NCBI GenBank assembly: GCA_947311515.1
Contig: CAMZLB010000062.1
Coordinates: 1 to 33,293, forward strand
Source: Candidatus Moraniibacteriota bacterium
Lineage (GTDB): Bacteria > Patescibacteriota > Minisyncoccia > Moranbacterales > GCA-2747515
Direction of reading: 5' to 3'
DNA: 33,293 nt
The position numbers were made by a program, and so were the translations under genes. This document shows, in pieces, positions 3,151 to 4,294 of the stretch. Within the stretch, counting starts at the first letter, position 1; the number at the start of each line of letters is the position of its first letter. The notes under the pieces were generated by a model. The model was given only the letters and a program-made list of their open reading frames with translations. It was not told where the DNA came from and searched no databases.

Positions 3151-3435
3151 ATGGCAAGAATAACAAAAGCTGATATTATATCGACAATTGCAGAAAAAAC
3201 TGATACACAAAAGGTTGTAACAACAAGAGTAGTGGATGCGTTCATTGAAGAAGTAACTGCACAATTAGCACAAAAAAATGAGGTAGCGTTTACAGGCTTT
3301 GGAACTTTTTCAACTTCAGACAGAGCTGCACGTCAAGGTGTTAATCCAGCAACTGGAGAAAAAATTCAAATCGCTGCAACAACAGTACCAAAATTTAAAG
3401 CTGGTAAGGCATTAAAAGACGCTGTTAAAGCGTAA
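3151..3435 (+). CDS. HU-family DNA-binding protein
   Basis: MARITKADIISTIAEKT...FTGFGTFSTSDRAARQGVNPATGEKIQIAATTVPKFKAGKALKDAV; ATG at 3151 with upstream aggtaggtg preferred over the GTG at 3142. Confidence 0.95.
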   Translation: MARITKADIISTIAEKTDTQKVVTTRVVDAFIEEVTAQLAQKNEVAFTGFGTFSTSDRAARQGVNPATGEKIQIAATTVPKFKAGKALKDAVKA

Positions 3436-3445
3436 TTTGTAAATG

Positions 3446-3503
3446 TCATGACAGTATCGAAGTTATAATATTAGGGGATATTTATACTAAGATACTGTCA
3501 TGA
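3446..3503. other. 13-bp perfect inverted repeat downstream of HU gene
   Basis: TCATGACAGTATC (3446-3458) and GATACTGTCATGA (3491-3503), 32-nt loop, no poly-T tract. Confidence 0.75.
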
Positions 3504-3537
3504 TGTAGTTTGTGTATAGATAATGTTTTATTTTGAA

Positions 3538-3566
3538 TTGACAAGATTTGATTCAAAAGGTATTAA
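3538..3566 (+). promoter_or_regulatory. Candidate sigma70-type promoter for downstream ncRNA candidate
   Basis: TTGACA (3538-3543), 17-nt spacer, TATTAA (3561-3566). Confidence 0.5.
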
Positions 3567-3605
3567 AATACATCAGTGTGAAAATTGGCGTGGACGCCTT
3601 ATGAA

Positions 3606-3640
3606 TTAGGTTAGGTTAGGTTAGGTTAGGTTAGGTTAGG
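3606..3640. repeat. Simple tandem repeat TTAGG x7
   Basis: Seven perfect consecutive TTAGG units read directly. Confidence 0.98.
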
Positions 3641-3732
3641 TGTAGAAAATTTTAATTACATCGGGTGAGGTAGTTAATTTAATGCAAATTTATAAATTAA
3701 ATTTTAATAGTTTGCATTCTACAAAGTGGAAT

Positions 3733-3765
3733 AAAAAACTACTATCGGGTGAGAGTAGTTTTTTT
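3733..3765 (+). terminator. Rho-independent terminator
   Basis: AAAAAACTACT-ATCGGGTGAG-AGTAGTTTTTTT, 11-bp stem running into T7. Confidence 0.8.
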
Positions 3766-4003
3766 GGTTAATATTATTATTTGGATATAAGTGGACAAAA
3801 AAATAATAGCAGGAGAACACTTAGAAATCATATAGGAACTTCTTCAAAATCTTTCACTTCAATTAAGACTCTTATTTTTTCTTAAATTCCTTAGTATTTC
3901 TACTAAAGAATTTAAAAATCCTAGTAATAAAATAAGGTATTGTACGGGTTATACAATGTAATAAATATATTTTAAAAACTTGTATTAATTTTAAGCTATA
4001 AGA

Positions 4004-4294
4004 ATGAACATTATAATATTGTCTATAAAGGAAAAAAAAATTACATTAGAATTGTTTGTGGATAATCGTATGATTTATTTAGAGTCATGGTTGGATAATA
4101 ATGATATATTAGAAATTTTTTTTGAAGAATTAGATAAACTTCTTAAATTGAATAATTTAAATATAAAAAATATTTCAAAATTTAAATTAAAAACAGAAAA
4201 TCCATTTGGATATACAACAGTTAGAATTGCAGAAACTCTTATAAGCTCACTGAACTTTTCAGAAAAAGAGTTTTATATAAATACGAAAATATAA
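4004..4294 (+). CDS. TsaB-like (Kae1/TsaD-associated) small protein, divergent
   Basis: N-terminal pattern IILSIKEKKITLELF...ELDKLLKLNNLNIKNISKFKLKTENPFGYTTVRIAETLISSLNF resembles the TsaB N-terminal half. Confidence 0.35.
   Translation: MNIIILSIKEKKITLELFVDNRMIYLESWLDNNDILEIFFEELDKLLKLNNLNIKNISKFKLKTENPFGYTTVRIAETLISSLNFSEKEFYINTKI

Follow-up and report, generated by a model that had tools for sequence, protein, structure and literature searches.

The DNA analysed here (hereafter the window) is a stretch of 33,293 nucleotides from a Candidatus Moraniibacteriota bacterium, and belongs to a genome of 1.2 Mb. The locus studied lies downstream of the HU gene, and its features, all on the forward strand, are the following.

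3151–3435, + strand: HU (hup) gene, upstream of the locus, assigned by Pfam PF00216
3538–3566, + strand: promoter TTGACA-17-TATTAA, read directly and fitting the promoter–motif–terminator order of relatives
3573–3766, + strand: predicted non-coding transcript of ~190 nt, with a more stable fold than its own shuffles (z = −2.85) and no ORF of at least 60 aa inside
3587–3598, + strand: small hairpin GGCG-TGGA-CGCC, −4.6 kcal/mol when folded alone
3606–3641, + strand: (TTAGG)7, a perfect tandem pentanucleotide repeat upstream of hairpin A within the predicted RNA
3641–3723, + strand: possible three-way junction of a closing helix (3641–3645/3719–3723), hairpin A and a hairpin at 3681–3718, from folding alone
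3652–3677, + strand: hairpin A, 8 pairs, from direct reading and folding
3660–3669, + strand: motif copy 1, AUCGGGUGAG, the loop of hairpin A, with the core GGGUGAG at 3663–3669; the sequence recurs in leader and terminator RNAs of relatives
3733–3764, + strand: hairpin B, 11 pairs, an intrinsic terminator running into a T tract, from direct reading and folding
3744–3753, + strand: motif copy 2, AUCGGGUGAG, the loop of hairpin B, with the core GGGUGAG at 3747–3753, on the same basis as copy 1
4004–4294, + strand: next gene, 238 nt past the terminator; its 96-aa product is of unknown family

The promoter is present where the initial annotation had placed it, with TTGACA at 3538–3543, TATTAA at 3561–3566 and a spacer of 17 nt, matching the consensus at 10 of 12 positions by eye; a strict promoter scan omits it because the final T of the −10 box is missing. 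The earlier description of two hairpins whose 10-nt loops are identical (ATCGGGTGAG as DNA), the second being a terminator, was also confirmed. Hairpin B is followed directly by seven T. A pair of hairpins with identical loops (at least 7 pairs, loop of 8–12 nt) arose in none of 2,000 dinucleotide shuffles of 3436–4003, and hairpins A and B are the only pair with an identical 8–12-nt loop in the whole window. The 9-mer TCGGGTGAG has two copies in the entire genome, both of them at this locus. Each loop is able to close one U-A and one C-G pair around GGGU.

Judged by their sequences, the two hairpins appear to derive from a tandem duplication and to have diverged since (AATTAC-ATCGGGTGAG-GTAGTT versus AACTACTATCGGGTGAGAGTAGTT). 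Aligning the stems recovers the compatible differences reported earlier, with one U-A pair gained in B and one C-G pair in place of U-G. A duplication would account for two loops of one sequence, which leaves the question of why they have not drifted.

The small GGCG-TGGA-CGCC hairpin lies where it had been reported; it is absent from the full-length MFE structure and has no comparative support. The proposed three-way junction does form when 3641–3723 is folded alone (−18.6 kcal/mol), but other pairings compete with it in the full transcript, and it is peculiar to this genome and without comparative support. The (TTAGG)7 repeat, missing from the initial annotation, is a candidate for slippage that would change the length of the leader. 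Directly past the HU stop, at 3447–3502, there is also a 12-bp perfect inverted repeat, CATGACAGTATC/GATACTGTCATG, with a spacer of ~32 nt. The HU genes of family f1 (L072–L079) carry an unusually long Shine-Dalgarno stretch, UAGAAAGGNNGGUGA, which is kept across genera.

A scan of the window against Rfam 15 gave no match to any known family at the gathering threshold, in agreement with the earlier description of the locus as an undescribed RNA element. Among 18 member loci the same scan returned only a tRNA, and the best E value in a permissive scan of 3430–3900 was 1.9. Nothing on the GGGUGAG motif, on regulatory RNAs of Moranbacteria or on control at intrinsic terminators in the Candidate Phyla Radiation came up in a literature search.

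A conserved core beside intrinsic terminators

The loop sequence was sought in the family (Candidatus Moraniibacteriota), a set of 17 genomes made up of the window's own genome and 16 relatives, and its core was found to be conserved. The core GGGUGAG, usually as CGGGUGAG, lies in or just 5′ of an intrinsic terminator and mostly directly after a sigma70-type promoter. Exact copies of ATCGGGTGAG in relatives are intergenic and have one layout: the motif comes after a TATAAT-like box and is itself followed immediately by the terminator. Such exact copies stand beside a promoter and terminator in G007, G010, G011, G012, G014 and G016, and beside the HU terminator in G013. At 0–4 copies per genome the 9-mer TCGGGTGAG is rare, and all of its copies in the window's genome (G000), G005, G014 and G015 are elements of this kind; chance matches in coding sequence (L132, L135, L138–L140, L143, L148–L151, L154, L155 and others) were set aside.

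A model (R1), derived from the six aligned leaders described below, was run on related genomes, where it returned further members with ACGGGTGAG in G002, G005, G008 and G010; on about one third of the window's genome its best E value was 1.8. A scan that required a T6 tract, run on 131 genomes of the order, found real elements in this family only. A pattern search added members both within the family and elsewhere in the order (among them six g62 genomes and G104, G106, G091, G031 and G054); outside family f1 the count of the 7-mer pattern is barely above control, and the members there depend on their hairpin context. In a GTDB-wide scan the carriers are Candidatus Moraniibacteriota, and the 11 single matches in unrelated organisms beyond the lineage are about the number predicted by a uniform-base estimate. 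Comparison of whole leaders with relatives at the DNA level yielded only AT-rich and terminator-stem noise. Two contigs of DYDB01 (L249, L263), titled Micavibrio sp. IMS_BF-2, carry the same element as G005, and their public name looks wrong.

The stems around the motif covary. In an alignment of six leaders, a 12-pair stem starts at the UGAG of the motif with 97.2% of its cells paired; five of the 12 pairs show double changes, and the covariation score is higher than those of all 500 shuffles and of every slid register. For a set of 14 leaders (10 at the transpeptidase gene described below, one at a secreted-protein gene and three beside yfiH), pairing is kept at 94 of 98 variable stem positions, compared with a mean of 59.7 after re-dealing the arms, and none of 5,000 re-dealings was as good; kinship among the leaders inflates these tests somewhat, and the slid-register control is clean. 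GGGUGAG is invariant throughout the 14 leaders, which is partly built in, since the leaders were collected partly by that sequence. Model R1 tolerates changes, yet all of its strong matches keep GGGUGAG.

The place of the motif relative to the stem is by no means constant. It covers the free 5′ end and the stem base at the transpeptidase gene, and lies within the stem near murA and in G091 and G031, at the stem/loop border in family f7, upstream of the stem at HU in G013, and in the loop in the window. Similarly, the distance from the −10 box to the motif ranges from ~7 to 180 nt, while that from the motif to the terminator stays short. This variation in geometry and in −10 distance points to a common partner that reads the RNA sequence, and argues against both a promoter element and a fixed riboswitch fold. 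By comparison of the members, the constant feature is the sequence and its closeness to a terminator, usually to a promoter too, and not a hairpin loop. The two-hairpin fold is peculiar to this genome; relatives keep the sequence near the terminator and not the fold. The range of the element exceeds what the initial annotation described, whereas the particular fold described there has less support. The idea of a binding motif shown twice by the repeated loop fares better: the sequence is indeed conserved in relatives, but its presentation in a loop is peculiar to this genome.

Genes beside the motif and a putative attenuator

The most regular neighbour of the motif is a gene for an L,D-transpeptidase. 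In 10 of the 17 family genomes, from four genera (G002, G005, G007, G008, G010, G011, G012, G013, G014 and G016), the leader lies 43–90 nt upstream of this ORF. The YkuD domain was confirmed by Pfam in all four of the proteins tested (G002, G007, G008 and G012), and the others were assigned via a common C-terminal signature. The start codon is only ~6–50 nt past the U tract, with scant or no room for an additional promoter, so the gene is most simply transcribed by readthrough of the terminator. All 10 leaders have the conserved order expected of an attenuator, with a promoter, an intrinsic terminator and a nearby ORF. In the window's own genome, the transpeptidase leader (L327, ~17680–17975 of contig C52) keeps the promoter, hairpin and U tract, and the motif has decayed to UUAGUGAAU; a second transpeptidase of this genome (L330) has no leader. 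This loss implies either that the regulon differs between genera or that the window RNA has another target there.

Other copies stand beside unrelated genes. In the g5 genomes a second copy is located ~300 nt 5′ of murA, which has its own promoter, and a third lies past yfiH and is followed by a second terminator, the next gene being glycyl-tRNA synthetase in two species and a different one in the third. The copies ahead of glycyl-tRNA synthetase (L215, L207) do not match the T-box covariance model, and a T-box is therefore disfavoured. The motif precedes secreted-protein genes with a similar N-terminal region in G015 and in G091, which is of another family, and precedes enolase in G054. In six g62 genomes of family f7, GGGUGAG is at the stem/loop border of the terminator. 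The gene downstream was confirmed as ftsK in G119, G121, G122, G123 and G124, and the terminator of G123 shows a compensatory change from C-G to U-A. Past HU, the full motif in G013 and the GGGUGAG variant GGGGUGAG in G011 each stand shortly 5′ of the terminator; no motif was seen past HU in the g5, g6 or g3 genomes examined. At four loci (L295, L297, L298 and L304) there is a second conserved hairpin, GUGAUCGGGAG...UUAAUUCUCGAG, ~40 nt past the motif terminator and before ftsK; it has a covarying outer stem, is followed by a small CxCPxC ORF and has no Rfam match.

The motif, the layout of promoter, motif, covarying hairpin and U tract, the recurrence at unrelated genes and the orthologous position at the transpeptidase gene are read directly from the genomes; transcription, termination, binding and the direction of control are steps that we infer. 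We propose that the window carries a member of a family of GGGUGAG-terminator RNAs whose core is read by one trans-acting factor, and which acts as an attenuator at the transpeptidase gene, and we give this reading as a whole a probability of about 0.5. GGGUGAG is probably the recognition site for a putative regulator, and the copies at the transpeptidase gene, judged by their arrangement, probably form a transcription attenuator. In the nascent or released RNA, single-stranded GGGUGAG would be read by the factor, which is most likely a protein. By default the transpeptidase leader would yield a terminated RNA of ~45 nt, and binding of the factor to GGGUGAG would be in competition with the closing of the stem base, shifting the balance between termination and readthrough. 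Copies with no close downstream gene (in the window, near murA and near yfiH) would give short RNAs that carry this site and serve either as extra targets or to titrate the factor. In the window, where the site is duplicated, one RNA would show it twice.

A single exclusive switch between binding and termination does not explain all copies, given that the place of the motif relative to the stem varies; several copies have no near downstream sense gene and fit a small RNA better than a leader. A switch in cis, in which the motif would pair with a downstream complement, is unsupported by 10 of 11 leaders, which have no complement of at least 6 nt downstream; in the exception, G013, the complement is the terminator arm itself.

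A bolder proposal is that of one global regulator acting at the RNA level, which may be an RNA-binding protein specific to the lineage. By reading GGGUGAG on leaders that are nascent and terminated, it would jointly control genes for peptidoglycan, division and the surface (L,D-transpeptidase, murA, ftsK, secreted proteins and HU), and the two-site RNA of the window would be its natural sponge. In this full form we consider the proposal speculative and rather unlikely. A leader element that recurs with covarying stems and an invariant core of 7 nt suggests a common regulator of cell-envelope genes in largely uncultured and probably host-dependent cells, and the GGGUGAG loci offer a concrete target set for tracing it.

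Alternative readings of the motif

A base-pairing small RNA is the main rival to a protein factor and a serious one. Here, GGGUGAG would be the seed of a family of trans-acting RNAs of 45–190 nt that pair with C-rich (CUCACCC-like) sites in mRNAs, the downstream genes being mostly incidental. The promoter–motif–terminator units are compact enough for such RNAs, past the murA-side copies there is a separate murA promoter, past the yfiH-side copies a second terminator and genes that differ between species, and the loop presentation in the window resembles that of small-RNA seed loops, where two copies would double the seed. However, across four genera the distance between the transpeptidase copies and the start codon stays at ~6–50 nt, which fits a leader acting in cis; a perfect 9-nt complement is found nowhere else in the G000 or G005 genomes; and the putative seed is paired inside the terminator stem in the murA-side copies. 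We hold this reading as a tentative possibility.

It is conceivable, though improbable, that the motif resembles a Shine-Dalgarno sequence, GGUGA pairing with UCACC of the 16S tail (GGAUCACCUCCUUUCUA in this order of bacteria) and drawing 30S subunits to short leaders, much as the HU genes use a GGUGA-containing Shine-Dalgarno sequence, UAGAAAGGNNGGUGA. The invariant last G would nevertheless find no partner in the 16S tail, and a wobble is all that the first G could form, U and A being the best fit at these positions. Moreover, genuine Shine-Dalgarno sequences vary whereas GGGUGAG does not, and the aligned leaders have neither a start codon nor a conserved small ORF at a constant distance after it; full complementarity to the 16S tail together with a start codon 4–10 nt downstream was not found.

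An element acting in DNA during early transcription, such as an operator or a pause or escape sequence near +1, is equally improbable. In many leaders the motif is 7–11 nt past the −10 box, which is at the start site. Elsewhere, however, it is 19–40 nt downstream, in the window ~95 and 180 nt, and in G013 past the HU ORF, so that it tracks the terminator and not the start site.

The least probable reading, disfavoured by the comparative data, is that of a functionless, ordinary terminator with a loop duplicated by chance: stems of the ACTACT/AGTAGT type are indeed common terminators in these genomes (L010, L011), but the same GGGUGAG occurs at independent loci of many species with covarying stems around it.

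Comparison with known systems

The arrangement in the window, with two successive hairpins sharing a loop motif and the second being the terminator, recalls the leaders targeted by ANTAR proteins (nasF, amiR and eut type). The loops of ANTAR targets are hexanucleotides with A1 and G4. In contrast, the two loops at this locus are 10 nt long, and in most relatives there is a single hairpin with the motif outside its loop, so an ANTAR-target RNA is disfavoured. LoaP/RfaH leaders also place a short element upstream of terminators and envelope genes. Such a specialised NusG paralogue is disfavoured as the factor here, PF02357 being found once per genome in 16 of the 17 genomes and not at all in G008. 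Small RNAs with a seed in the terminator loop, such as RepG and the UCCC-loop RNAs of staphylococci, share with the window a short conserved sequence in that loop; GGGUGAG differs in being G-rich rather than C-rich and, in most relatives, in lying outside the loop.

The proposed factor-read element also resembles the leaders controlled by LicT/SacY (RAT–terminator), PyrR, HutP and TRAP, which likewise consist of a promoter, a short leader and a recognition sequence that adjoins or overlaps an intrinsic terminator ahead of the gene. They differ from the GGGUGAG leaders, in which an antiterminator hairpin is not conserved, and to our knowledge GGGUGAG is not among the binding sequences of these regulators. 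In each of these systems one factor serves several genes, as proposed here for GGGUGAG. The element is a new RNA of a known general kind, a leader or terminator-associated regulatory RNA with a putative partner.
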